22,227 nucleotides of DNA. Origin: a virus. Shown here piece after piece: positions 2,133-19,878 of this stretch. The translations under genes were made by a program, and so were the position numbers. The notes under the pieces were generated by a model. The model was not told where the DNA came from and made no database searches. It worked only from the letters and a program-made list of their open reading frames with translations. Position 1 is the stretch's first letter, and each line of letters opens with the position of its first letter. Where the stretch lies: the IMG/VR virus record IMGVR_UViG_3300031687_000115, positions 1 to 22,227 of that record, one strand, 5' to 3'.

Positions 2133-4337
2133 TTAATCTATTAATTTTGAATGCATCCCTTTATTTTTAAATTTTGATATGCTTATATTTAGTTTCTGTC
2201 TTTTTACTTCTGCATTAGGTCTATATAAATGTCTATTACAAGCCATTATAGCTAATCCCGAACTAATTGCAGCATCAAATTTTGTTCTATTGTTTATATC
2301 AAACTTAGCCCAGTCTTGTAATGTTTCAATGAAATATAAATCACCGTGTGTTCCATCTATTTTCGTACCAACGTGATCTTGTATGTACATTTCAATTGCA
2401 GCTGCATGAGCTTGTTTTATGTCTTCGCTTGAGTTAGGTATTCCACCAACTTCTTTTTCAGCAACAGATAGCTTGTTCCAAGACTTATCTGGTCTATTCA
2501 TTGAATATCCTCTATAACCACGTCTTCTCAAATAATACAATAGACGAGGTTTATTATTCTCTGCTAATATAGGCATCCCGTAAAATACAAGTGCCATTAG
2601 AACGTCTTCAAAGAAGATCTCGGCTGTTTGAGGTCTAGCTACATACTCTAAAAAGAAATGTGCGGGAGGACAATCCTCCATACTAAACTTTGTTAAACCG
2701 TGCAAAGCACCTTTAGATCCTTTACCATCAACTGTGCCAGATATATCATAAGAGTCACATCCAAATGAACCCATGTGTTCGTTAGCAGGATATTTAATTC
2801 CATTTTTTATTATATGCTTATTTTGTAATTCAGACTTAGGCGTCCAGCTAACTTTAAATCTACCGTTAGCATTTGGGTAAAATATAACTTTACCATCTTT
2901 AACACCATTAACCCATTGAAAATTACCTTTTGTCAAAGGAACATTAAGCTCCTCGTTGTAGTCTATTTGCTCGTATATCTTTGCTAAATTAAATATACTG
3001 TTTTGTGTCTCATCTCTGAAAGCATGTTCTTCAGTTCTTGGAAATTGCCTGTAAAATTCATTTAAAGCATCTCCATCATTTTTTAAGCCATCAACTTCGT
3101 TTTGCCAGTGCTCGATGATTCCCATCTCGATGTATTCTCCGTAAGGTCCTTTAACCTCTTGCTCCGGCGTATCAAAGACAGGGTGTCCATAAGCATCAAT
3201 GAATCCTTCGTAGTTCCATTCCATAGGTATGAACAAAGAATATAATCCTGTGCTAGTCTGTCCATTACGGTTTCTTTTTTTAACATCTGATCCATTGTAA
3301 AGTTTTTTGAAGTTATCTCCTCCTTTGTCTAGAGCATTTGATGTTGAACCCATCATACACTTACCTATAATTCTAGAACCTAATCTAAGGGTAGTTTTAG
3401 TAACACGCCAGTTGTTTAGTATGTTATTAGGTCTTTCCCATTTACCACTTTCATCGTGAGCTAGTAGTTTTAGTTTTTCACCATCATAACTATTATCTCC
3501 TGTATTTTTCCAATCAATGGTAGTGTCTAATCCTTGTAAGTCTTCTTGATCACTTCCTGATTCTATTTTTCTCCTTGTTAATTTAGATGCTGGTACTCTA
3601 TATGCTAATTCTGTTTTAGGTCGATCCATACCATCTTGAATCGGTTTAAAAAAGAAAGGATAGTTGACTGATATAGGTACAACTTTATCTGTAAACATTT
3701 TCTTAGCATCTGGTCCAGTTTTAGATAATATACCTAATCTAGCATCACTAGATATTGTAGCCATATTAACTAACTCTCCTGACGCCATAAAAGAAAAACC
3801 TGAACGTCTGTTTTTAAGGTAACACATACCATAACATCTTTTATCAGCTTTACAAGCTTCCCAAAATATATAGAATAATCTATTAGCTTCTCTAAAATCT
3901 GGTTGGCCTACATCTATCTTAGACCATTGTAAGTACATATAGTGTGTACCGGTTATGTAAGTATCTACTCCTTTGTTTTTAAACCAAAATCCTTCTTCTC
4001 TTCTTTTAAACTCTTCCTCTATGTAATCTATATGTTGTTCTTTGAAATCTTTAGGTATTTCTTTCCAATCAAATATAGTTTTTAATCTAGATAAAGCTTT
4101 AGGTTGTGGACTTACTTGCCACGTATCATTTTCAAACTTATTTACACCAGTTACCTTCGGTAATGCTATTCTTAAATTTTGTATGCTATACACCTCACCT
4201 ATCTGACCTGTCTTGCTTATAACAATAAGATCATGTTCTTTATTATAACCATATTCCCAGGCTTTCTTTTTGTTTAGCCTTTTTATGGTGTTTATCTTTA
4301 TAGGTTCTATAACCTCATATAAACTTTGCTTATACAT
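2133..4337 (-). CDS. terL: Terminase large subunit (TerL)
   Basis: This is the DNA-packaging motor: an N-terminal ATPase and a C-terminal RNase H-like nuclease that docks on the portal. At 734 aa it is long for a TerL. A P-loop-like segment lies at about residues 172-182 (CYLKNRRSGFS), where the usual GKS/T is replaced by GFS. Walker B is LKLLAHDE (D295/E296) and the coupling motif is near GSTSN (330-334). Candidate nuclease acidic residues are D528 and D531 (FGCDSYDIS), E593 (ILAENNK) and D688 (KFDAAISSG). The start overlaps the upstream gene's stop as TAATG, suggesting translational coupling. The deviant P-loop resembles crAss-like phage terminases as I remember them. Confidence in TerL is high, in lineage moderate. 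Confidence 0.93.
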   Translation of the reverse strand: MYKQSLYEVIEPIKINTIKRLNKKKAWEYGYNKEHDLIVISKTGQIGEVYSIQNLRIALPKVTGVNKFENDTWQVSPQPKALSRLKTIFDWKEIPKDFKEQHIDYIEEEFKRREEGFWFKNKGVDTYITGTHYMYLQWSKIDVGQPDFREANRLFYIFWEACKADKRCYGMCYLKNRRSGFSFMASGELVNMATISSDARLGILSKTGPDAKKMFTDKVVPISVNYPFFFKPIQDGMDRPKTELAYRVPASKLTRRKIESGSDQEDLQGLDTTIDWKNTGDNSYDGEKLKLLAHDESGKWERPNNILNNWRVTKTTLRLGSRIIGKCMMGSTSNALDKGGDNFKKLYNGSDVKKRNRNGQTSTGLYSLFIPMEWNYEGFIDAYGHPVFDTPEQEVKGPYGEYIEMGIIEHWQNEVDGLKNDGDALNEFYRQFPRTEEHAFRDETQNSIFNLAKIYEQIDYNEELNVPLTKGNFQWVNGVKDGKVIFYPNANGRFKVSWTPKSELQNKHIIKNGIKYPANEHMGSFGCDSYDISGTVDGKGSKGALHGLTKFSMEDCPPAHFFLEYVARPQTAEIFFEDVLMALVFYGMPILAENNKPRLLYYLRRRGYRGYSMNRPDKSWNKLSVAEKEVGGIPNSSEDIKQAHAAAIEMYIQDHVGTKIDGTHGDLYFIETLQDWAKFDINNRTKFDAAISSGLAIMACNRHLYRPNAEVKRQKLNISISKFKNKGMHSKLID

Positions 4338-4609
4338 TACTTAGATCTTCTTTCTGCAAAACCACCAAAGCTTTTCTTTTCATCTTCTTTAGGTTTGTTA
4401 TCAAGTATGTCTTGCTCGTTTTGTATCCTGTTTAATATTTCAAACGCATCGAATATAGCTAGCTTTTTTGTAGCGGCAGCATTTTTAAGTCTGTCAGCTG
4501 ATATGTCATCATCTGTTTCAACTATAGGTTCTTTAGCTACCTTGATTAATTCATCTACTGCTCTATGTCCAGCTTGGATTATATTCCTTTTCGTTTCCTT
4601 GATATTCAT
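4337..4609 (-). CDS. Small helical protein upstream of TerL; possible small terminase
   Basis: A 90-aa protein starting MNIKETKRNIIQAGHRAVDE. The frame is open 51 bases further upstream to 4660, but that extension lies wholly inside the preceding gene's coding sequence. The start at 4609 is preceded by an A/T-rich leader (ACAATTAAAT) typical of this phage. It overlaps the upstream gene by 47 nt and the terL start by one base (TAATG). The sequence is charged and predicted helical, with a Lys/Glu-rich tail (KPKEDEKKSF). Position directly before TerL, small size and helicity fit a small terminase subunit, but no helix-turn-helix is obvious, so that role is only a hypothesis. Confidence 0.7.
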   Translation of the reverse strand: MNIKETKRNIIQAGHRAVDELIKVAKEPIVETDDDISADRLKNAAATKKLAIFDAFEILNRIQNEQDILDNKPKEDEKKSFGGFAERRSK

Positions 4610-5147
4610 ATTTAATTGTAATAAAATTAGATAAAACCCTATATAGTCTTTGACCATCAACTATAAACTCATATTCACTGTTAGGTGTAAAACCTATTAA
4701 ATCTCCTTCGTTTACATCTAGCTTATCGTTTGTGTATTTAACAACACCTACTAATGGTTTTTCTTTGTCTTCAAATATGTCATCTGACTTCAAAGGTTTT
4801 ACAAAACAATAACTAGGTAGGCTTGACCACTTGTCTTTGTTTTTGTATAAAAATATTTGATCTATAGAAACAAAATACTTATCTTCTTCAAAATAAGATT
4901 TACTATTTCTTTCCACACCTTGTTGATCGTGCCATCTTCTAAAAACATTGTGATGTATAATAACTGTATCTCCAATGCTTATATCTGTTTCAACAGACTT
5001 AGGTAGAGAAACTACTATAGCTTCTCTATTAACGTATTGATGATTAAAGATCTCTGAGTTAAGTATTAACTCTTTGTCTCCAATTTTTTTTACGTTATTA
5101 TATCTAGATCCTTTTGGCTTAACAACAAAGTTAAATAATCCCTGCAT
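4563..5147 (-). CDS. Tandem GroES (cpn10)-like fold protein in packaging module
   Basis: A 194-aa protein that looks like two consecutive GroES-like beta-barrels. In the first half, FVVKPK, ELILN, REAIVVSLPK, ISIGDTVIIHHNVFRR and KYFVSIDQIFLYK follow the order of co-chaperonin strands: start strand, mobile-loop region, 'GxV' strand, 'GDxV' strand, closing strand. The second half repeats it: YCFVKPLK, PLVGVVKYTN, VNEGDLIGFTPNSEYEF, RLYRVLSNFITIKYE. Canonical GroES is about 95 aa, so 194 aa suits a duplication. The start overlaps the upstream stop as TAATG. A separate conventional GroES is encoded at 18063-18320. The role could be a co-chaperonin or a structural protein reusing the fold. The fold call is by eye. 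Confidence 0.78.
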   Translation of the reverse strand: MQGLFNFVVKPKGSRYNNVKKIGDKELILNSEIFNHQYVNREAIVVSLPKSVETDISIGDTVIIHHNVFRRWHDQQGVERNSKSYFEEDKYFVSIDQIFLYKNKDKWSSLPSYCFVKPLKSDDIFEDKEKPLVGVVKYTNDKLDVNEGDLIGFTPNSEYEFIVDGQRLYRVLSNFITIKYEYQGNEKEYNPSWT

Positions 5148-5657: not shown

Positions 5658-6557
5658 TTACTTCTTTTTAGCTGGTGAAGATATATACCAGTTTTTATAT
5701 TTTTCTCTTTTAGCACAGATGTAGTCTATGTATTTGTCAACTTTCTCTTTCCAATTCTTATCTATAGCTGGATTTATTATACCAGATTTATAACTTGAAA
5801 AAGTTTTATTAACGTATTCTACGATATTGTCTTGGTTGTGATATAAGAAGCTATTTATACAATAGAAGGATCCTTGTTGTATGTTGTTCCAAATGTCCAC
5901 AGGTTCTATACGTTTTCCTAACACGCCAGCAAATAAAGGGCTTTCACTTATATGAGTGGAATAAACGCCTTTAGCTTTTTGCATGTAGTAATACATATCT
6001 ACGTTTTTAGGAAGAATATTTTCTTCGCCAAAAAAATCTTTTAACTCACCTATTATTTGATGTGTAGTTATAGGATGTGGTTTAAATAAAACATTATTAC
6101 CGTGGTTGTTAACTATATGCTTTAATCTGTTTAAACATACGTTTTCTCTAAGTTTGTTAGAACCCGGTAAAACTATTAAATAGTCCTTAGGAGGAAATCT
6201 GTCCAATTCTTCTTGCCTTTCTTTGTATTTGTTAGCATTGTTGTCAACAACTTTTTTTACTAACCAAGAAGAATAGTCTAGCACTTTACTTTCTGTATCG
6301 TGCCAAGCGTCGAGCATTTGCTCGTTACGCATTTTAAAATTTAAAGGTTGTAGATAAAAACTACCACCGTACTCAGTGTATGCTAGTGTTTTAAAGTAAG
6401 GCATTTCTTCGGCCATTACATCATAGCTATGTTCTAAGCCATTTTCACCGCATTTTCTAATGACATAACCTTCTACCTGTTCTAGGTCATATAGGCTGTC
6501 ATTTTTTTTAAGAGGGCCTATTCTTTTCTTAAGCTCCTGCTTGTTAAACATTTCCAT
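5658..6557 (-). CDS. GT-B-type glycosyltransferase (capsule-synthesis-like)
   Basis: A 299-aa protein whose second half has the signature of GT-B enzymes of the capsular-polysaccharide/polysialyltransferase type. A beta strand (YLIVLPGS, ~126-133) leads to a KPHP motif (159-162). About 40 residues later comes YSTHISESPLFAGVLGK (199-215), matching the 'S-ES-x-x-x-A-x-x-GK' nucleotide-sugar binding element. The family transfers or exports activated sugars. The N-terminal ~110 residues are not recognised. It is the first gene after the Thr/Ser/Asn-rich fibre at 6614-8191, so modifying fibre side chains is an attractive but unproven role. Altering host surface sugar is the alternative. The 56-bp gap upstream contains an AT-rich stretch but no convincing promoter. 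Confidence 0.78.
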   Translation of the reverse strand: MEMFNKQELKKRIGPLKKNDSLYDLEQVEGYVIRKCGENGLEHSYDVMAEEMPYFKTLAYTEYGGSFYLQPLNFKMRNEQMLDAWHDTESKVLDYSSWLVKKVVDNNANKYKERQEELDRFPPKDYLIVLPGSNKLRENVCLNRLKHIVNNHGNNVLFKPHPITTHQIIGELKDFFGEENILPKNVDMYYYMQKAKGVYSTHISESPLFAGVLGKRIEPVDIWNNIQQGSFYCINSFLYHNQDNIVEYVNKTFSSYKSGIINPAIDKNWKEKVDKYIDYICAKREKYKNWYISSPAKKK

Positions 6558-6613: not shown

Positions 6614-8191
6614 CTACTCGTTATTACCTTGAAACGGATTAGTTCCTAGTTGTCCAAATTGATTGAAGTTTTGATAATACCCAGTGTTAGTTGAATATAT
6701 CGTGGTAAAAGCAGTTGACGTGTCAAATGATGTTGTTGTACTAGTACTTGTATTATAGTTTGTAGTCCTGTTAGTTTCAAAAGTAGTAGTATACGCAGTT
6801 GTTGTGTTTTTGCTTGTAGCTGATGTTTCAGTCGTGTTTCTATTTGTTGAAACCACCGTTGATGTTGACGTGTTATACGTAGTAGTATATACCGTTGACG
6901 TTGATTTACTAGTGCTAATCGTAGTGTTTGTACTTTTACTTGTTGAAAGAGTTGTAGCTGTACTTGTGTTGAATTGGGTTATTGTTGTTTTACTAGTAAT
7001 TGTACTTGTGTTAAAAGTAGTAGTATATACAGTTGTTGTATTTTTAGATGTTTCTTGTGAAATAGTACTTTTACTTGTAGAAACTACTGTTGATTTACTT
7101 GTAGAAACTACTGTTGATCTACTTGTGTTAAAAGTAGTGGTAGTGTTTTTACTAGTTTCAAAAGTCGTAGTATAAGTTGTAGTTGTATTTTTACTAGTTG
7201 CAAAAGTCGTATTTTTACTTGTAGACGTTGATTTACTTGTAGACACAACAGTTGTTGTTGTGGTGTTATACACTGTTATCGTTGCAACACTTGTTGATTT
7301 AGTTGTGTTTCTAGATGTTGCTGCATTTACATTTGTTAAACCAATAGTTTGTAATGTAGTAGTATATATAGTATTAGTAGACGTGTTATAAGTAGTAGTT
7401 GTATTAGTACTAGTGTTATAAGTAGTTAACGTGTTTTTGCTTGTACTAACCACAGTTGATCTAGACGTTGAAGTTGATTTACTTGTTATAGTACTTGTGT
7501 TAAAAGTTGTAGTAGTTGTATAAGCAGTAGTTGTTGATCTGCTTTCAGCTGTCGTAGTGCTAGTATTGTAATTGGTTGTTGTACTATACGCGGTTGTAGT
7601 GTTAAAAACTGTTGATGTTGTTTTACTAGTTGATGTATTTCTACTTTCAACCGTTGTAGTACTAGTGTTATACGCGGTAGTAGTACTATAAGTAGTTGTT
7701 GTGCTTTTATTTGTTGATGTACTTTTACTAGTTGACACGGTAGTAGTTCTACTTTCAACCGTTGTTTTACTAGTACCGTATGTAGTTGTTGTACTTCTAC
7801 TAGTTGATACTGTAGTGTTTCTAGATGTTGAAGTATTTTTGCTAGTATTATATGTAGTTGACGTAGTGTAAGTAGTCGTAGTATTAAACGTTGTAGTTGT
7901 ACTTTTAGTTGTATTATAAGTTGTAGTTGTACTTTTACTTGTTGCTGTAGCAAATGTAGTGGTTGTAGTATATGTAGTGGTTGTAGATCTACTCTCAGCT
8001 GTACTTTTACTCGTACTAGTGCTTCTTGTTTCTGCTGTAGCTCTAGATGTGTTAAAATTAGTAGTAAAAGAAGTAGTATAAGTAGTCGTGGTATTTCTAG
8101 ACTCTCCAGTACTCTTACTAGTACCTCTTGAGGTATTCCTCAGGGTATTTCGACTTGTATTTCGTAATGTAGCTCTAGTAGTATTTGGCAT
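6614..8191 (-). CDS. Thr-rich dyad-repeat fibre-like protein A
   Basis: A 525-aa protein almost wholly made of a two-residue repeat. From residue ~3 to ~503 every second residue is Thr, replaced at intervals by Lys, Arg, Glu, Tyr, Phe or Val; the alternate residue is small (Ser, Asn, Thr, Ala, Gly). Typical stretches are TTTTYNTSKNT and TVESRNTSTSK. Such alternation means a long extended beta structure with one polar-small face and one Thr/aromatic/charged face. The N-terminus is Arg-rich; the last ~22 residues (GYYQNFNQFGQ...) are Gln/Asn/Gly-rich and non-repetitive. There is no signal peptide or membrane segment. Thr codons vary, so the pattern is kept at protein level. It sits in the fibre cluster and has a larger paralogue at 8743-10797. 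It is probably a fibre shaft or decoration; exact role unknown. Confidence 0.85.
   Translation of the reverse strand: MPNTTRATLRNTSRNTLRNTSRGTSKSTGESRNTTTTYTTSFTTNFNTSRATAETRSTSTSKSTAESRSTTTTYTTTTTFATATSKSTTTTYNTTKSTTTTFNTTTTYTTSTTYNTSKNTSTSRNTTVSTSRSTTTTYGTSKTTVESRTTTVSTSKSTSTNKSTTTTYSTTTAYNTSTTTVESRNTSTSKTTSTVFNTTTAYSTTTNYNTSTTTAESRSTTTAYTTTTTFNTSTITSKSTSTSRSTVVSTSKNTLTTYNTSTNTTTTYNTSTNTIYTTTLQTIGLTNVNAATSRNTTKSTSVATITVYNTTTTTVVSTSKSTSTSKNTTFATSKNTTTTYTTTFETSKNTTTTFNTSRSTVVSTSKSTVVSTSKSTISQETSKNTTTVYTTTFNTSTITSKTTITQFNTSTATTLSTSKSTNTTISTSKSTSTVYTTTYNTSTSTVVSTNRNTTETSATSKNTTTAYTTTFETNRTTNYNTSTSTTTSFDTSTAFTTIYSTNTGYYQNFNQFGQLGTNPFQGNNE
6683..8185 (-). repeat. Degenerate hexanucleotide-periodic repeat encoding X-Thr dyads
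   Basis: About 500 codons with six-base periodicity on the minus strand (plus-strand text is dominated by variants of GTAGTTGTACTAGT). The repeat is degenerate at DNA level, with all Thr codons used, yet near-perfect at protein level. One phase break is visible near the ISQET stretch, where the small/large alternation shifts by one residue. Confidence 0.85.
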
Positions 8192-8201
8192 CTTTAAATT
8201 A

Positions 8202-8741
8202 TTATAACATAGGTATTATTAACTTACCATCTGTTTTTAAATTATTACTATAGTTATTTTCTAAAGCTGTTTTATGGTCTTCAGATACATCATCTGGTTC
8301 AGCCCATAGATCAGCTATTATTATATCATATTTTTTTGATGTATCGTATGACCATTCATCATGTGTTATTACATTTATATCACTATGTAACCAATCGACT
8401 GTGGATACTATTTCAGCATCTTCTTCGACAACATCTACACTTGAAGGGCTTTTATTATCTTTTATATATTGTGGCACCACACCTAAACCTAGACCTAATA
8501 CTAAAACATCTCCCCAAGTTACACCATCAAAAAGTGAAGCTTTAAAACCACAATCACTACAATCACCTACTTTAACTTTAGCTGAATATTCGCTATTGTA
8601 ATATTTGTGTAATACATCGGCTTTATATTTCAGATGAGAAATTACATATTGTGTTTCACCATCTTCAATAGAAGTTAGAGTTTCTTTTACTATTTCAAAG
8701 TTGGTGCCATCATGAGCACTTATTAAATCTTCGTTTATCAT
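8202..8741 (-). CDS. Class I SAM-dependent methyltransferase-like protein (spermidine-synthase-like)
   Basis: A 179-aa Rossmann-fold protein. Motif I is VLVLGLGLGVVP (79-90), the acidic SAM-ribose loop is VDVVEED (102-108), and motif IV is YDIIIADLW (138-146), followed by a terminal strand LKTDGKLIIPML. The order and spacing fit class I methyltransferases; the ADLW pocket recalls the spermidine-synthase branch. At 179 aa it is shorter than typical spermidine synthases (~280 aa) and ends right after the strand, so it may be a minimal catalytic domain. It is inserted between the two Thr-rich dyad-repeat genes, with 1 nt and 10 nt gaps, suggesting it acts on them or on the tail. The substrate is unknown. 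Confidence 0.75.
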   Translation of the reverse strand: MINEDLISAHDGTNFEIVKETLTSIEDGETQYVISHLKYKADVLHKYYNSEYSAKVKVGDCSDCGFKASLFDGVTWGDVLVLGLGLGVVPQYIKDNKSPSSVDVVEEDAEIVSTVDWLHSDINVITHDEWSYDTSKKYDIIIADLWAEPDDVSEDHKTALENNYSNNLKTDGKLIIPML

Positions 8742-8742
8742 T

Positions 8743-10797
8743 TTATTTAATTTTTTTAAATTCTACATCTAGTATACTGTAATCAACCCATTTAGTACCT
8801 TTCCAATTCATTACTGCACCTGCTACATTTTCAACTTCATCAGCCATAACACCTTGCCATTTCCCTGGGTATTCATCAGCAAATTTACCTTCTTTAAACT
8901 CAAACGTGTATATGTTAACACCTTTTTTAGATTTACCTATTAACTCAATGTTTTTCTTTAATGATCTTTGAGATGGTCCACCAAAACCTCCACCACCAGA
9001 ACATTGGTTAACTGCTATAACACCACCACCACCGCCTTGTGTTCTAAACTTATGCGTTGGACTAAAACCTGAAGCATTTGTTGCTCCGTACCAAGCATCA
9101 CTTAATGCTGATGAACCACCAGAGTTTGTATATACAAAACTATTTACTTGGGGTATACCACTACTAACGTTAGTTCCGTAATAAGTGTTACCCATAAATT
9201 GATTACACACAAAGCTAAAGTTAGATGCTCCTGATGCTACAAAACTAGTAAGAGATGCTGCTGTAGAAAAAGTAGTTATATATGCTGTTTGATAAGTTGT
9301 TGTAAATGCAGTTGCATAAGTTGTACTGTATGACGTCGTTGTGTTATAAGACGTACTAGTTGACTTACTCGTGCTTTTACTTGTTGTTCTACTAGTTCCA
9401 AACGTCGTAGTTGTGTTATATCTAGTTGTTGTATTAAACACAGTAGTGGTTGTATAAGCAGTAGTTGTGCTTCTTGTTTCAGTTGTACTTCTAGTTGTGT
9501 TTGTATTAAAAGTAGTTGTTGTACTTCTGCTAGTTGCAAAAGTAGTAGTGGTTGCTCTTGTTGTGCTAGTGTTTCTTGATTCTATAGTATTTTTACTAGT
9601 ATTAAAAGTTGTTGTTGTATTAAAAGTAGTTAACGTACTAGTATTGTAAGTTGTTGTAGTAGTTGTACTAGTATTATAAGACGTTGTAGTATTATATACA
9701 GTTGTCGTAGATGTGTTAAAAGTGGTAGTAGTATTAAAAGTTGTTGTTGTACTTCTAGTTTCTATCGTTGACGTACTAGTATTATAACGTGTTGTAGTAT
9801 TATATGTAGTTGTTGTATTAAAAGTTGTCGTAGTGTTTTTACTTGTAGACGTGGATCTACTCTCAGCCGTCGTAGTAGATGTATTGAAAGTCGTTGTTGT
9901 AGTGTAAGCTGTTGTTGTAGACCTACTTTCAGCTGTACTTTTACTAGTTGCAAAAGTTGTCGTGTATACAGTAGTAGTGTTAAAGGTTGTAGTTGTAGCT
10001 GTGTTGAAAACAGTACTTGTATTTTTACTAGTGCTAACTACAGTGCTAGTTGCTCTAGACGTGCTTATAGTGGTTGTTCTATTAGTTGTAGTACTAGTAT
10101 TGAATATAGTAGCTGTTTGCTTTATAGTATTACCTAGAAACGTATTGTATGTAGTTGTATAAACAGTTGTAGTATCTTTAGATGTACTATGAGTTGTAAC
10201 AGTAGATGTGTTGAAAGTAGTAGTCGTGTTAAATGTTGTAGTCGTACTAGTGTTAAAAGCAGTGCTAGTTGTTTTATTAGTAATCGTAGACGTGTTGTAC
10301 GCAGTGCTAGTTGTTTTAGTTGTATTGAATACAGTAGTAGTACTAGTGTTGAATACAGTTGTAGTACTAGTGTTATACGTGGTAGTTGTACTAGTATTAA
10401 ATGCCGTTATAGTTATAGTTGATGTTACCTTACTTGTGTCGTAGGTCGTAGTGTATACTGTCGTCGTGTCTTTTGTAGTATTAAAAGCTGTAGTGCGCAA
10501 CGTGTTAAATGTAGTTGTTGTTGCAGTCGACGTATTATATGTAGTTGTTGTATTTTTATTTGTTATTCTTGAAGTAGAAACTACAGTTGTTGTAGCTGTA
10601 TTGTAAACAGTATTAGTAGTAGTACTAGTGTTAAACGCTGTTGATGTTGATTTATTAGTGACAGTACTAGTATTAAACACCGTTGTAGTACTAGTATTAA
10701 ATGTGGTAGTCGTGTTTTTTGACGTTCCCGTATTTTTACTGGTTGTTCTTTGCGTTGTTTTGCTCCAGAAAACTATCTTACTCCATAGAAAATTCAT
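8743..10797 (-). CDS. Thr-rich dyad-repeat fibre protein B with C-terminal peptidase S74-like chaperone
   Basis: A 684-aa protein in three parts. After a short N-terminus (MNFLWSKIVFWSK), residues ~13-515 are the same strict two-residue repeat as protein A (FNTSTTTVFNTSTTTV and so on). Residues ~520-608 are a Gly/Ser/Asn-rich non-repetitive domain with GGGGG and SGGGGFGG runs. Residues 609-684 resemble the S74 intramolecular chaperone of phage tailspikes and fibres: SQRSLKKNIELI, IYTFEF, WQGVMADEV, VDYSILDV. In that family a Ser/Lys pair self-cleaves after helping trimerise; S609 and K614 have the right spacing, but the usual Asp after Ser is Gln. The chaperone is the strongest evidence that this is a trimeric tail fibre. 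Confidence 0.9.
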   Translation of the reverse strand: MNFLWSKIVFWSKTTQRTTSKNTGTSKNTTTTFNTSTTTVFNTSTVTNKSTSTAFNTSTTTNTVYNTATTTVVSTSRITNKNTTTTYNTSTATTTTFNTLRTTAFNTTKDTTTVYTTTYDTSKVTSTITITAFNTSTTTTYNTSTTTVFNTSTTTVFNTTKTTSTAYNTSTITNKTTSTAFNTSTTTTFNTTTTFNTSTVTTHSTSKDTTTVYTTTYNTFLGNTIKQTATIFNTSTTTNRTTTISTSRATSTVVSTSKNTSTVFNTATTTTFNTTTVYTTTFATSKSTAESRSTTTAYTTTTTFNTSTTTAESRSTSTSKNTTTTFNTTTTYNTTTRYNTSTSTIETRSTTTTFNTTTTFNTSTTTVYNTTTSYNTSTTTTTTYNTSTLTTFNTTTTFNTSKNTIESRNTSTTRATTTTFATSRSTTTTFNTNTTRSTTETRSTTTAYTTTTVFNTTTRYNTTTTFGTSRTTSKSTSKSTSTSYNTTTSYSTTYATAFTTTYQTAYITTFSTAASLTSFVASGASNFSFVCNQFMGNTYYGTNVSSGIPQVNSFVYTNSGGSSALSDAWYGATNASGFSPTHKFRTQGGGGGVIAVNQCSGGGGFGGPSQRSLKKNIELIGKSKKGVNIYTFEFKEGKFADEYPGKWQGVMADEVENVAGAVMNWKGTKWVDYSILDVEFKKIK
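9264..10761 (-). repeat. Degenerate hexanucleotide-periodic repeat encoding Thr-X dyads
   Basis: About 500 codons with the same six-base period and the same length as the repeat in 6683-8185. Aromatic residues (F/Y) recur at even spacings only (4, 6, 8, 10, 14, 18 residues), always on the Thr face. One short interruption near FLGNTIKQTA breaks the pattern, roughly in the first half of the shaft. Confidence 0.85.
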
Positions 10798-10809: not shown

Positions 10810-11472
10810 TTATTGTGGATAACTTGAGAAATTACCTACATAGTTAATTAATACTTTTGTGTTTGAAATTACAAAATAAGTGATAACAGCTATTTTATTC
10901 GCTGTTACATTAAATGTTATAGCGCTTCCACCAGGTGTATAACCTGTGTTTGGTAAAGCAGGACTAGCCCATGTTAAATTTCCAACTTCATTTGGATTAT
11001 TTATTATGATAGTACCTTGTTGACCAATGCTATTAGTCATATTCGCAAAAGTAAAGCTATGATCAACAGATGATGAATTAGCTGCAGCACATATGTAATG
11101 ATTAGTTTCATGTGCGAAATCTATAGCAAAAACTCCGCTACTGTGATTTATTGTTTTTGGATTCGATTTTTGATGACTAAAACCTCCAGATATATTAAGA
11201 CCTGCAGCCCCAACGCTCATTTGTTTTATCCCTGCACCACCACTAGTATTGTGATCCCAAAATTCAAATCGTTGATTATTGTTACCACCAAAGTGGACAC
11301 TCATAAAACCGTTACTTCCGGTGTTTATAAAAGGTCCATATGTTATGTCTGATGCAAATTTTATGTCTCCGCCAAGAACCTCTAGATCTCCGCCAAATTC
11401 ACCGTGTCTTCCGACGGTTAAATCAGATGTAGACCCTTTTATGTCTAAGCCATTATAAATATCTATTGCCAT
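10810..11472 (-). CDS. Tail fibre / appendage protein
   Basis: A 220-aa protein. The N-terminus (MAIDIYNGLDIKGSTSDL) resembles that of the 508-aa fibre upstream (MAIPILNHLDFFKAGE) and may be a shared docking peptide. The middle is Gly/Asn-rich (FGGNNNQRFEFWDHNTSGG), and the C-terminal ~90 residues alternate beta strands (GTIIINNP, GGSAITFNVTANKIAVITYF, KVLINYVGNFS) like the beta-sandwich ends of marine phage fibres. It lies downstream of a stable hairpin and 12 bp before the dyad-repeat fibre B, so it is probably part of the same adhesion apparatus. No enzymatic motif was seen. Confidence 0.75.
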   Translation of the reverse strand: MAIDIYNGLDIKGSTSDLTVGRHGEFGGDLEVLGGDIKFASDITYGPFINTGSNGFMSVHFGGNNNQRFEFWDHNTSGGAGIKQMSVGAAGLNISGGFSHQKSNPKTINHSSGVFAIDFAHETNHYICAAANSSSVDHSFTFANMTNSIGQQGTIIINNPNEVGNLTWASPALPNTGYTPGGSAITFNVTANKIAVITYFVISNTKVLINYVGNFSSYPQ

Positions 11473-11536: not shown

Positions 11537-13063
11537 TTATGTTGTGTAAACTGGTGTTTTAACTGTAGAACCTTTTATTGAAGTAATCATAACCTCAAGA
11601 TCGTTTGCAGGAGCAACAGCAAAAACAATTTTAATCTCAGCAGTAGAAGCAGTACCATCTTTGTCTGTTCTATTTATTTCAGCAAAACACTGTTGCTTTG
11701 TAACTGAATCAAATAACTGAACTATAACATCTTCAGTTCCTAAACCATGAGGAATAACAGCAAATAAATTACTTACAAAGTTAGATTCGTCATGATCTAT
11801 AGTAGCATGTACTGATTTAGCAGCTAATGTATCAGGTGTTACTGCTCTAGCAGCATCTGTACCTACTAATGTTTCGGCAGCAGTTGCTAATTCAATAATA
11901 CCTTTTACCGTAGCGCTTGAATCTGGCTCATCACCAGTGTTACTACCGCTAAGAGTTGTAATACCGTCTAGAAGATTTAATTCCGTAGGTGTTGAAGATA
12001 TTGTTGTTGTACTAGGATCAGCAGCGAATAAAGCTACGTGACCAGTTACGTTTGGTAGTGTGTATGTTTTATCAGAAGTTGCGACAGCAGATTTTAAAAT
12101 TGCATCGTGACCGTCAGCAGCAGCACCTTCAAATTGAATACCATTTGACGTACTTACTGTTACAACGTTATTTGTAGTTGTGGTACCAGTTACTGTTAAA
12201 GAACCTGGTATTGTTGTTACCGTGTCACCGTTACCTATTTGTAAAGCGTTAGAAGCTATTGCACCACCTAATGCAGCTTTTACATTTACAGCATCTGTTA
12301 CATCTGCACCATCTTCTACACTAAGTATTGCTAATGCTTCAGCTTTTGATAAAGCTTTTGGAACACCAGCATTATCAGCAGTTCTACCTATAAAAGTATC
12401 TGTAGCTATATTAGCTAGCTTAGCCATTGTTATATTAGCATCAGTAATTTTAGCAGTTGTTACTGCGCTTGCAGCTAATTTTCCAGTTGTAACGTTTAAG
12501 TCAGCTATTTTAGCTGTAGTAACGTTAACATCAACTATACTAGCTGTAACAACAGCATCTGAAGCTAAGTTATCAGCATCAACCGCGTCATCAGCAAGCA
12601 TTGAGTGAACAATATCACCAGCACCAATAACAAAGTCTAAGTTACCATTAGCATCATCGTACCCAACAGTAATACCTGTTTCAGTACCATCTAACATTCC
12701 ACCTACGAAATCTTCAACTTGTTCTTGTGTTAATTGAGTTCCTGTTGCAGCTATTGTAACTACACCACCAGCTTCTGCTATTGTAACACCAGTTCCTTTT
12801 TTGAAAACCAATGATTCTCCTAGTTCTAATGTGTTGTTTACAGATCCATCACCGTTGGTGTCGACTGCAACTGTTCTGGTACCACCGCCAGAAGCTAGTG
12901 ATAACCATGCTGATCCATTATAGACTTTTACTGTGCCTGAGTCATAAATTATTTGCCCCGTACCTGGTGAACTGACACTACTAGTTGCTGTGGTATGAAG
13001 CAGTACGTTTTGGATTTCACCTGCTTTGAAGAAATCCAAATGATTTAAAATTGGTATTGCCAT
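11537..13063 (-). CDS. Tail fibre protein with repeat shaft
   Basis: A 508-aa fibre. The N-terminal domain (1-65) has IIYDSGTVKVYNGSAWLSL, a common phage-fibre head motif, ending in a GGG hinge. Residues ~155-225 are a shaft of short repeats (ASIVDVNVTTAKIADLNVTT, AVTTAKITDANITMAKL), roughly 10 residues each and alternating beta/turn. Later come STPTELNLLDGI and the fibre phrase VKGIIELATAAETLVGTDAA, then RAVTPDTLA. The last ~90 residues (FAVIPHGLGTEDVIVQLFDS) form a beta domain resembling the end of the next upstream gene's product. Start ATG at 13063 is preceded by an A-rich leader and a triple 9-bp repeat. Receptor binding is the inferred role. Confidence 0.88.
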   Translation of the reverse strand: MAIPILNHLDFFKAGEIQNVLLHTTATSSVSSPGTGQIIYDSGTVKVYNGSAWLSLASGGGTRTVAVDTNGDGSVNNTLELGESLVFKKGTGVTIAEAGGVVTIAATGTQLTQEQVEDFVGGMLDGTETGITVGYDDANGNLDFVIGAGDIVHSMLADDAVDADNLASDAVVTASIVDVNVTTAKIADLNVTTGKLAASAVTTAKITDANITMAKLANIATDTFIGRTADNAGVPKALSKAEALAILSVEDGADVTDAVNVKAALGGAIASNALQIGNGDTVTTIPGSLTVTGTTTTNNVVTVSTSNGIQFEGAAADGHDAILKSAVATSDKTYTLPNVTGHVALFAADPSTTTISSTPTELNLLDGITTLSGSNTGDEPDSSATVKGIIELATAAETLVGTDAARAVTPDTLAAKSVHATIDHDESNFVSNLFAVIPHGLGTEDVIVQLFDSVTKQQCFAEINRTDKDGTASTAEIKIVFAVAPANDLEVMITSIKGSTVKTPVYTT

Positions 13064-18066: not shown

Positions 18067-18320
18067 TCAACTAAAACGACGTCTTGTATCTTTATAACTT
18101 GAAATAACTTATCTTTCCAGTTTATACCATGTCCAGCATGTTTGTCATAGTATATAGTACTATTGTCATCTATGCCTTCGACTAGGTTGCCTTTAGTTAT
18201 AACTTTTGCCTTTATATACCTATTGTCAACGTCTGTTTTTTCTGTTAAAATCAAACCTGCAATCTTTTTAGGCTCTTCTTTTATCTTTTCGACTACTATG
18301 TAATAATTAACTGCTTGCAT
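18063..18320 (-). CDS. groES: Co-chaperonin GroES (cpn10)
   Basis: An 85-aa protein, slightly shorter than bacterial GroES (~95 aa). YYIVVEKIKEEPKK is the first strand; IAGLILTEKTDV is the mobile loop that docks on GroEL (compare GGIVL); IKAKVITKG is the 'GxVxxxG' strand; STIYYDKHAGHGINW corresponds to the 'VlFxkyaGtxv' segment; LFQVIKIQDVVLVE is the closing strand. GroES caps the GroEL ring during folding. It overlaps the 3' end of groEL by 14 nt and follows it in transcription, the reverse of the normal bacterial order. Confidence 0.9.
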   Translation of the reverse strand: MQAVNYYIVVEKIKEEPKKIAGLILTEKTDVDNRYIKAKVITKGNLVEGIDDNSTIYYDKHAGHGINWKDKLFQVIKIQDVVLVE

Positions 18321-19878
18321 TTGGTATTCTTATATTAGAGATTACACAATCTGCAGAAATTATAGTAGACACGACACTAACTGCATTCTTTAGTGCTGTC
18401 TTTGTAACTAGTACTGGGTCAATTATGCCATTTTTTATCATATCAACCTCTTCTCCGGTTGTTACGTCAATACCATACCCAATTTTTGCTGGAGTTTTTA
18501 TTAATACTATGCCAGCATTGTCTAAAATTGTTTTAAAAGGTGATATAATAGAAGAAAGTAGTATTTTTTCTCCAATATTGTCACTTTTTATATGTAAAGC
18601 AGCATTTAGTAGGGCAACTCCACCGCCAGGAACAATTCCTTCTTGCAAAGCAGCCTTAACTGCGTAGATAGCATCTTCAACTCTGTCTTTCTTTTCTTTC
18701 AATGCTACTTTAGAGTCAGCACCTACATTAATTATACCTACAGAACCGCTTAACATAGCTAATCTGTCTTGTAGTCTCTTCTTAAAGTAAGGCTTATTCT
18801 CTTTATTAATCTTATCTTTAACATCTTTGATCCTTTCTTCAAGGTCTTCAGCTTTTAAACCAGTTGTAAGGACTGTAGTTCTGTTATCTGTGACAGATTT
18901 CACTACTTCACCCAAACAATCTGGCTGGATCAGATCTAAATCGTCTCCAAGCTCTTCGTTCATAACTTGCGCTCCAGTTAAAAATGCTAAATCTTCTATA
19001 GTATCTGCTTTACTAGGGCCAAAACCAGGTGTATCAATAATGTTTACATTGATATTACCTTTAACCTTGTTCATTAACAGGGCAGATTTAACCTGTTGAT
19101 CAACTTCTGCTATAATAAGTAGAGGTTTTCTCTTCTTTATAACATGTTCTAGTATATTCTGTATCTTTCTTACTGTTGGTATAGGTGAAGAAACTATTAA
19201 AACCAACGGGTTTTCTAGTTCTGACACCATTTTATCCTTATTAGTGGCAAAGTGTGGTGACGTTAGGCTACTATCAAACTGTACGCCCTCTACTATTTCA
19301 GTGTATGTCTCATCACTCTCACTTTCCTCCATCAGTACTACACCGTCTTTACCTACTTTTTTGTAAGCTTCTGCAATAATTGTTCCAAGCTCCGCATCAT
19401 TGTTGCACGAAATTGAGGAAACACTGGATAACTGTGTTCCAGATACTGCTTTGGAGTGTTCTGAAAGGTACTCCACAACTTTTTTATATCCTGATTCAAT
19501 TCCATTTTTTATATCTCTTATGCTTTCACCCTTATTTTCCGGGTTGTTAACTTCTTTTAACAGTGCTTCAGCAAGGACGATAGCCGTTGTGGTACCGTCA
19601 CCTGCTTCTTTCACCGTATTCTTAGATGCTTCTTTAATTAGTGTAGCTCCTATGTTTTCTACAGGATCTATTAAAACTACAGAGTCGGCAACTGTTACAC
19701 CATCTTTGGTTATAACTGGTCTGCCTAATCCATCTTCATATACTACACACTTACCTGAAGCTCCTAGGGTAGATTTAACTGCTTTCGCTAGTTTATCTAC
19801 ACCTTTAATAATTCTACTTTTAGCGTCGTCACCGAAGTACAGATCTTTTACGATCTCGCTAGGTTGATTAAATTCCAT
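18307..19878 (-). CDS. groEL: Chaperonin GroEL (cpn60)
   Basis: A 523-aa full-length chaperonin subunit. The ATP site is intact: VITKDGVTVA (D59), AGDGTTTA (D94) and the hydrolytic Asp in RVEDA (D402, equivalent to E. coli D398), then VPGGGVALL (417-424) and GIIDP (D487). The apical domain reads VEGVQFDSSLTSPHF, KPLLIIAE, then VNIIDTPGFG. It ends at NIRIPNASS without the Gly-Met tail of bacterial GroEL, which lines the cavity floor. Phage chaperonins are known in some large phages, where they fold capsid or other virion proteins. It is the third gene of the leftward operon. Both partners being present suggests a self-sufficient folding machine. Confidence 0.95.
   Translation of the reverse strand: MEFNQPSEIVKDLYFGDDAKSRIIKGVDKLAKAVKSTLGASGKCVVYEDGLGRPVITKDGVTVADSVVLIDPVENIGATLIKEASKNTVKEAGDGTTTAIVLAEALLKEVNNPENKGESIRDIKNGIESGYKKVVEYLSEHSKAVSGTQLSSVSSISCNNDAELGTIIAEAYKKVGKDGVVLMEESESDETYTEIVEGVQFDSSLTSPHFATNKDKMVSELENPLVLIVSSPIPTVRKIQNILEHVIKKRKPLLIIAEVDQQVKSALLMNKVKGNINVNIIDTPGFGPSKADTIEDLAFLTGAQVMNEELGDDLDLIQPDCLGEVVKSVTDNRTTVLTTGLKAEDLEERIKDVKDKINKENKPYFKKRLQDRLAMLSGSVGIINVGADSKVALKEKKDRVEDAIYAVKAALQEGIVPGGGVALLNAALHIKSDNIGEKILLSSIISPFKTILDNAGIVLIKTPAKIGYGIDVTTGEEVDMIKNGIIDPVLVTKTALKNAVSVVSTIISADCVISNIRIPNASS

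Follow-up and report, generated by a model that had tools for sequence, protein, structure and literature searches.

Threonine-dyad fibre proteins of a podovirus-like phage and the putative CMP-sugar transferase encoded beside them

Introduction

Serine-rich repeat adhesins of Gram-positive bacteria carry a very long, low-complexity stalk rich in serine and threonine, and the genes for their glycosyltransferases, GtfA/GtfB, lie in the same cluster. In natural fresh water, glycans reportedly coat the linear tetrapeptide repeats of the CryoSeek glycofibrils, and we know of no link between these fibrils and phages. Here, we describe two fibre proteins, F1 and F2, which are encoded next to a putative cytidine monophosphate (CMP)-sugar transferase in a 22,227-base fragment of a marine, podovirus-like phage (IMG/VR record IMGVR_UViG_3300031687_000115, positions 1 to 22,227; "the window"). 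The locus resembles the serine-rich repeat systems in its gene order, i.e., a gene for a low-complexity Ser/Thr stalk beside a glycosyltransferase gene. However, those systems use enzymes of another family, which are of the uridine diphosphate N-acetylglucosamine type, are found on cells, rely on accessory secretion, and lack a strict alternation of two residue faces. As far as the title of the CryoSeek work, listed among the references of PMC12967142, tells, the likeness to the glycofibrils would lie in a glycan-coated linear fibril of short repeats, and the difference in a repeat of four residues instead of two.

Sugars attached directly to filament proteins are known from flagellins: Maf transfers nonulosonic acids to Ser/Thr of flagellin by O-glycosylation, and one Maf is able to use 3-deoxy-D-manno-oct-2-ulosonic acid (Kdo), which sets a precedent for the reading proposed here (PMC11339370). 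The likeness to flagellin modification by Maf and FlmG is that a dedicated enzyme places a nonulosonic acid directly on Ser/Thr of a filament protein (PMC11339370; PMC7591256), but these enzymes belong to different families, and flagellin is a folded helical subunit rather than a ladder of dyads. In a putative case among phages, transferases encoded by mycobacteriophages are thought to glycosylate virion proteins, and they resemble the present system as phage-encoded enzymes proposed to modify the phage's own structural protein (PMC11256854); they differ in that the proposed target is a capsid protein, the enzyme families are others, and no dyad fibre is involved.

We consider it likely, though well short of certain, that F2 and F1 form a fibre with a Thr ladder that is O-glycosylated by its own CMP-sugar transferase, perhaps with Kdo, and that carries the S74 chaperone of F2 at its tip; the acceptor, the sugar, the placement of both chains in the same fibre, and the purpose are what we infer. 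A more specific proposal is tentative, and we regard it as possible rather than probable: two Thr-dyad chains of equal length share one long, hetero-oligomeric shaft, to which a transferase family specific to phages attaches a dense layer of an O-linked, acidic 8-carbon sugar, and in some lineages the phage itself supplies the CMP-Kdo; such fibres would represent an unnamed, widespread class.

Two shafts with an alternation of residue classes

The features on which the argument is built are the following:

8743..10797, minus strand: F2, a dyad fibre protein of 684 residues with a C-terminal S74 chaperone domain (open reading frame, dyad model, and S74 match)
9238..10764, minus strand: dyad shaft of F2, residues 12-520 (segmentation; one slip near residue 219, another at the very end)
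8746..9237, minus strand: C-terminal head of F2 with the Peptidase_S74 core, residues 521-684, S74 from about Ser609 (phrog_6121 on 597-674; PF13884 in homologues)
6614..8191, minus strand: F1, a dyad fibre protein of 525 residues that starts with MPNT and has no chaperone domain (open reading frame and dyad model)
6683..8185, minus strand: dyad shaft of F1, residues 3-503 (segmentation; slip near residue 377)
5658..6557, minus strand: predicted GT-B fold glycosyltransferase of 299 residues, phrog_26179, with a KxHP motif, K159-P-H-P162 (predicted fold and alignment)

Over about 500 residues in each protein, a Thr face (61% Thr, otherwise Tyr, Phe, Lys, Arg, Glu, or Val) alternates with an opposite face of Ser, Thr, Asn, Ala, or Val. 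The original prediction, which was made from the letters of the window, described this pattern as a strict X-Thr repeat with very few phase breaks. The strictness is borne out by a two-state alternation model, which requires a single phase slip per shaft (over 498 and 491 residues), while shuffled residues require at least 12 and score about 20 standard deviations worse. The autocorrelation at lag 2, which had been named as the test that could refute the pattern, upholds it: Ser plus Asn are in excess (+0.41, z 9 in F1; +0.27, z 6 in F2), with the sign flipping at every odd lag up to 24. Thr by itself is slightly negative, because it is abundant on both faces. Since Thr also makes up 30% of the second face, "X-Thr" is in fact an alternation of residue classes on two faces and, as had been stated, no homopolymer. 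Aromatic residues do fall at generally even spacings, but not exclusively so, with three exceptions (spacings of 35 in F1 and of 3 and 23 in F2). Non-Thr residues on the Thr face stand two or three dyads apart and hardly ever next to each other. The exception is Glu-x-Arg, with about 100 occurrences in 18 F1 proteins and about as many in 18 F2 proteins.

The codons for Thr, Ser, and Asn are mixed in the shafts, and the pattern is therefore maintained at the protein level and not by recent DNA slippage. An origin as a slippage artefact was rejected on these grounds, and also because F1 and F2 share peptide words of up to 35 residues without a common 30-base DNA word. The synonymous codons behind these identical words look scrambled, which perhaps avoids recombination between repeats. 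Among related phages, 75 shaft insertions or deletions (indels) have an even length and 5 an odd length, a count that is supportive without being independent proof, as the aligner itself favors the phase. In the F2 protein of one relative with one of the longest shafts (L004, 587-4501), phase slips are paired 28 residues apart and recur every 98 residues, with hardly any in its F1.

The shafts do not conform to described fibre types. They are not collagen-like, as had been claimed: Gly accounts for only 4 of 500 and 3 of 507 shaft residues, and Gly-X-Y repeats are found in neither shaft. For a triple beta-spiral of the adenovirus/reovirus type, there is no excess at lag 15 in any residue class, and Gly and Pro are nearly absent. 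An ice-binding TxT solenoid was considered as well; a coil-length periodicity is missing, and phages of many settings carry the pattern. No match in Pfam, PHROG, NCBIfam, or the sequences of the PDB covers either shaft, which agrees with the earlier statement that no named family was known, and no paper on such a shaft was found in the open-access literature, subscription papers being outside the scope of the search. The very long, continuous beta architecture that had been predicted does not emerge in modelling: AlphaFold2, run on a single chain of F2 with 12 relatives, gives the shaft a predicted local distance difference test (pLDDT) score of about 25 and no secondary structure, and a fold search with this model returned no matches; for a lone shaft, this prediction is weak evidence, since a fibre needs partners. 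What the original prediction missed is that the dyad shaft is a common feature that recurs across many unrelated phages.

The S74 tip of F2

F2 ends in a recognizable chaperone module. PF13884 matches 14 of 15 F2-type C-termini (best E value 7e-07), with the F2 of the window itself falling below the cut-off (E 0.026), and phrog_6121 matches its residues 597-674 (4.7e-08). AlphaFold2 assigns pLDDT values of 70-94 across most of residues 514-684. The Ser that starts the motif S[DQE]RxLKxxI, the autocleavage site in known S74 members, is invariant in all 15 C-termini. F2 is thus like S74 tailspikes and fibres of the endosialidase type in having a C-terminal chaperone domain with an invariant Ser at the expected cleavage position, but differs in that the domain follows a dyad shaft and that an equally long partner, F1, has no S74; neither S74 nor any other chaperone or trimerisation domain was found in F1 in Pfam and PHROG searches. 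Together with the gene two positions upstream of F2, which matches tail-fibre PHROGs, the Peptidase_S74 domain upholds the earlier description of the two proteins as phage fibre proteins.

In two relatives (L146, L150), a different head replaces S74. A distant F2 relative (L071, 12650-13258) has a weak Hint/intein-like match at the S74 position (E about 0.01, below the cut-off); Hint/intein-like and S74 modules are both capable of self-cleavage.

F1 and F2 shafts of equal length

Across 18 non-redundant F1/F2 pairs, the shaft lengths correlate at 0.9996, and partners differ by 8 residues on average, compared to 232 when partners are shuffled. With a slightly looser model, 28 pairs covering 262 to 1185 residues yield r 0.999 and a median difference of 8.5. 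Independent contrasts on the transferase tree retain the relationship (r 0.984, slope 1.03, n=27), with at most 0.64 reached in 5000 permutations. The equal-length rule, which the original prediction missed as well, also holds in an unrelated two-gene system (L069, 773/791 residues) and in the distant relative L071 (1002/1004). F1 and F2 probably build one fibre, the simplest explanation being that both chains run in it with their ends tied together.

A transferase gene that accompanies the dyad fibres

The product of 5658-6557 belongs to phrog_26179, which is annotated as unknown function, and has no Pfam match at threshold; Capsule_synth (PF05159) reaches only E 0.15, in one member. The AlphaFold2 model, built from an alignment of 28 relatives, has a pLDDT of 86, and its best Foldseek match in the PDB is the beta-Kdo transferase WbbB (E 2.7e-05). 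In a second structural search, ranks 1-17 are all Kdo or polysialic acid transferases, i.e., users of CMP-Kdo or CMP-sialic acid, among them KpsC (Z 10.4, 228 residues, 4.0 A), KrkA, and a polysialyltransferase (5wcn, Z 8.7 over 126 residues, 3.1 A). The motif (K/R)XHP is conserved in CMP-sialic-acid transferases and in retaining Kdo transferases, and QXXXD is the nucleophile motif of the latter (PMC12887879; PMC10148158). In 24 divergent members of phrog_26179, KxHP is invariant, as are D46, G132, N134, and E205, and S204-E205 is kept through very deep divergence. The closest folds to the predicted enzyme are accordingly those of WbbB (GT99), KpsC (GT107), KrkA (GT140), and the polysialyltransferase (GT38), with the KxHP CMP-binding motif in common; with the inverting, GT38-like GT-B enzymes that use CMP-sialic acid it shares the fold of the CMP-binding domain and the HP motif. 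GtfA (4pqg) is a weak fold match (Foldseek E 0.041), and there is no sequence match to the GtfA/GtfB type.

This dedicated gene of glycosyltransferase fold accompanies the dyad almost without exception, which the original prediction did not notice. Starting from the dyad shaft, the transferase is present in the stretch examined at 54 of the 71 loci fetched; 5 of 14 records without a local transferase carry one elsewhere, and in three of these a second dyad frame immediately precedes it. Starting from the transferase, 99 non-identical loci extend far enough upstream, and in 94 of them a dyad frame directly precedes the transferase, mostly within 100 bases. Many of these 99 loci are close relatives and do not count as independent events, and the thresholds of the dyad detector were chosen by us and kept identical throughout the counts. 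Two of the five exceptions still show traces of the dyad: in Quill, a dyad gene is present but was missed by the detector, as its frame is interrupted, and gp254 of Cr30 is a short protein resembling the dyad type.

At least seven arrangements, with no end domains common to their fibres, show this linkage: the F1/F2 pair, the MAIYVND type, the MTIKV type, the MANGAF type of about 3300 residues, Caulobacter Percyvirus, Lullwatervirus, and the Vibrio KVP40-like phages. Cultured examples from other phage families, all found via the transferase alone, are Caulobacter Percyvirus BL198 (gp046/gp047), Lullwater (gp41/gp42), and the Vibrio phages KVP40 (0254/0256), VS2, F86, D484, and D479. A tblastn search with the whole fibre returned no matches among cultured phages, probably because BLAST masks low complexity, and flanking genes were used instead. 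In bacterial genomes, none of 64 matches to the shaft pattern was confirmed, although low-complexity masking means that absence is not established there.

T4-like marine phages (L022, L019, L065, and similar) have the dyad shaft either fused to a conserved protein of the baseplate region (LEKFISPFI..QFPSIYKEEGP) or placed immediately after it. A second conserved family of about 210-310 residues follows the transferase in 13 of 25 representatives (L020, L051, L069, L160, L223, and others); three members have no Pfam match, and the family is possibly a second sugar enzyme.

Genes for the donor sugar

Some dyad-fibre phages encode steps of Kdo synthesis. In the lineage with the dyad protein of about 3300 residues, KdsA (Kdo-8-phosphate synthase; TIGR01362, 1.6e-116, above the cut-off) begins 13 bases after the transferase; next in line are a cupin gene and one that weakly matches GT29 (sialyltransferase). 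A 67 kb record from a relative of the window phage (L120) carries in a row a cupin, a cytidylyltransferase that is closest to KdsB, though below the curated cut-off, and KdsA; this cupin and the cupin next to KdsA in the first lineage are 50% identical. KdsA, a KdsB-like gene, and a shared cupin are thus encoded by dyad-fibre phages (L229; L013 downstream of 17838), and KdsA of L013 and L062 has a C-terminal extension of about 200 residues. Regardless of the phage, Gram-negative hosts produce CMP-Kdo themselves. Of the possible donors, Kdo has the best support, with odds near even; another nonulosonic acid may serve instead.

A proposed glycosylated fibre and its alternatives

In the mechanism that we propose, the shafts of F2 and F1 would form an extended ladder in which almost every other residue bears a hydroxyl. 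The 5658-6557 enzyme, made together with the fibre genes, would O-glycosylate the Thr/Ser rows in the cytoplasm; the sugar would most likely be an acidic one of 8 or 9 carbons, with Kdo as the best candidate. The S74 domain of F2 would nucleate and chaperone folding at the tip, as in trimeric tailspikes, and F1, without S74, would be co-assembled along F2, so that the two shafts must be equally long. The product would be a long, straight, charged, glycan-clad fibre. At 0.33 nm per residue, the upper bound for a fully extended chain, 500 residues would measure about 165 nm and 1180 residues about 390 nm. Candidate purposes are adhesion, with the fibre as an adhesin stalk, a stiff, charged, and protease-resistant coat that acts as a shield, or mimicry of a receptor.

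Glycosylation of the shaft is suggested by gene linkage and the predicted fold of the transferase, and several observations weigh against this proposal. The enzyme is only 8-14% identical to its solved look-alikes, with low Foldseek TM-scores (0.41/0.33), and the QXXXD motif is absent from phrog_26179, where the corresponding stretch, equated by motif order and not by superposed coordinates, reads LPG[S/T]N. It therefore differs from WbbB, KpsC, and KrkA and is not assigned to the retaining beta-Kdo transferases (GT99/107/140); the 5658-6557 product is probably a CMP-sugar transferase, but not a classical retaining Kdo transferase. Of the 44 records searched for Kds genes, many being fragments, only 4 carry any. 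In Stenotrophomonas phage DLP_6, no dyad gene was found beside the transferase, nor was one found in the short stretch examined of L226 and L227. Moreover, indels giving an equal net change mostly sit at different places in F1 and F2, apart from one 12-residue insertion near the same axial place in L004/L007, and the offsets of exact shared words are no closer to zero than chance (11 vs. 14 expected), while cross-correlation by offset gave a parity signal and a few modest peaks from related long phages. With no register of shared words and with indels elsewhere, it is total length that carries the case for side-by-side packing.

The lack of a conserved register would also suit F1 and F2 as two separate homomeric fibres, selected for equal length as both must reach the same distance, and phage virions often bear two types of fibre. 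We nevertheless regard this alternative as unlikely, if worth serious attention: F1 lacks a chaperone or trimerisation domain, the lengths agree to about 1% over a more than fourfold range, which is tighter than reach would seem to need, and the two genes of the paired lineage are always adjacent, with only a small methyltransferase-like gene between them. Equal lengths might also be kept by gene conversion that copies blocks between the two genes. Indeed, F1 and F2 of one phage share more peptide words than F1 and F2 of different phages (6.0% vs. 2.6% for 12-residue words, 2.0% vs. 0.5% for 16-residue words), but at the DNA level they have no shared 30-mers, and their shared 20-mers (0.41%) hardly exceed those of unrelated partners (0.32%). 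As conversion would, in addition, not equalize net changes when indels sit at different positions, we give it almost no credence. Different indel sites, words out of register, and no recent DNA exchange together imply that total length is the matched quantity.

The shaft might instead be an unmodified all-beta fibre, as the original prediction held, with the transferase acting on something else, e.g., a host surface glycan to block superinfection. Strict alternation is expected of an extended beta strand, phage transferases that modify the host O-antigen are well known, and it is by inference that the shaft is glycosylated here. However, a host-modifying enzyme has no reason to adjoin one kind of fibre in nearly all transferase loci, whether the phage is a Flavobacterium-type podovirus, a T7-like Caulobacter phage, or a T4-like Vibrio phage, and the structureless AlphaFold2 model of the lone shaft also speaks, weakly, against a beta fibre; we consider this alternative improbable. 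Still less probable, in our view, is that the transferase-like protein is a catalytically dead fold serving as a chaperone or export factor for a sticky, low-complexity fibre. The Asp1-family accessory secretion proteins of serine-rich adhesins are glycosyltransferase-like, too, and appear among the lower-ranked structural matches (6lnw, 5vae), but a dead fold would not be expected to keep the CMP-binding KxHP motif and S204-E205 through such divergence, or to be accompanied by Kdo synthesis genes in some phages.

Implications of the proposed fibre

The recurrence of the locus suggests that many phages carry long, sugar-coated fibres that have so far gone undescribed. If the glycosylated-fibre proposal is true, a large share of marine and freshwater tailed phages, as well as the cultured phages KVP40 and Lullwater, would bear mucin-like or glycofibril-like appendages that are invisible to annotation, because the shaft is of low complexity and the enzyme is listed as "unknown function". 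A function would then be assigned to phrog_26179 and phrog_30602, and the Kdo genes of such phages would be understood as fibre supply instead of host manipulation. The Caulobacter phages would provide a genetic system for direct O-glycosylation of a simple two-residue repeat, and the fibres a template for stiff glycosylated protein fibres.

Gene layout of the window

Three further genes lie between or upstream of the fibre genes:

8202..8741, minus strand: methyltransferase-like gene between F2 and F1, 179 residues, kept in the pair lineage (phrog_15480 methyltransferase, E 1.7e-05)
10810..11472, minus strand: gene upstream of F2, variable among relatives, probably fibre-associated (position and partial similarity in paired loci)
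11537..13063, minus strand: tail fibre protein (phrog_28766 tail fiber, 2.8e-10; phrog_910 tail collar fiber, 6.4e-08)

All F2-type loci examined have the order F2, small methyltransferase-like gene, F1, and transferase gene. Members of the paired lineage always have the methyltransferase-like gene (8202-8741) at this place, and methylation of the glycan or of the fibre is a possible role of its product. The interval flagged originally, 6683-10761, begins where one shaft ends and stops where the other starts, and it takes in this unrelated gene. The closest matches of the terminase (2133-4337) are in an uncultured "Podoviridae" genome (63%) and in Flavobacterium elemo, Cellulophaga, Maribacter, and Tenacibaculum phages. 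The window phage encodes a GroEL as well (18307-19878, minus strand; Pfam Cpn60, 9.7e-57), and the product of 4563-5147 (minus strand) matches a phage GroES family in the PHROG search.

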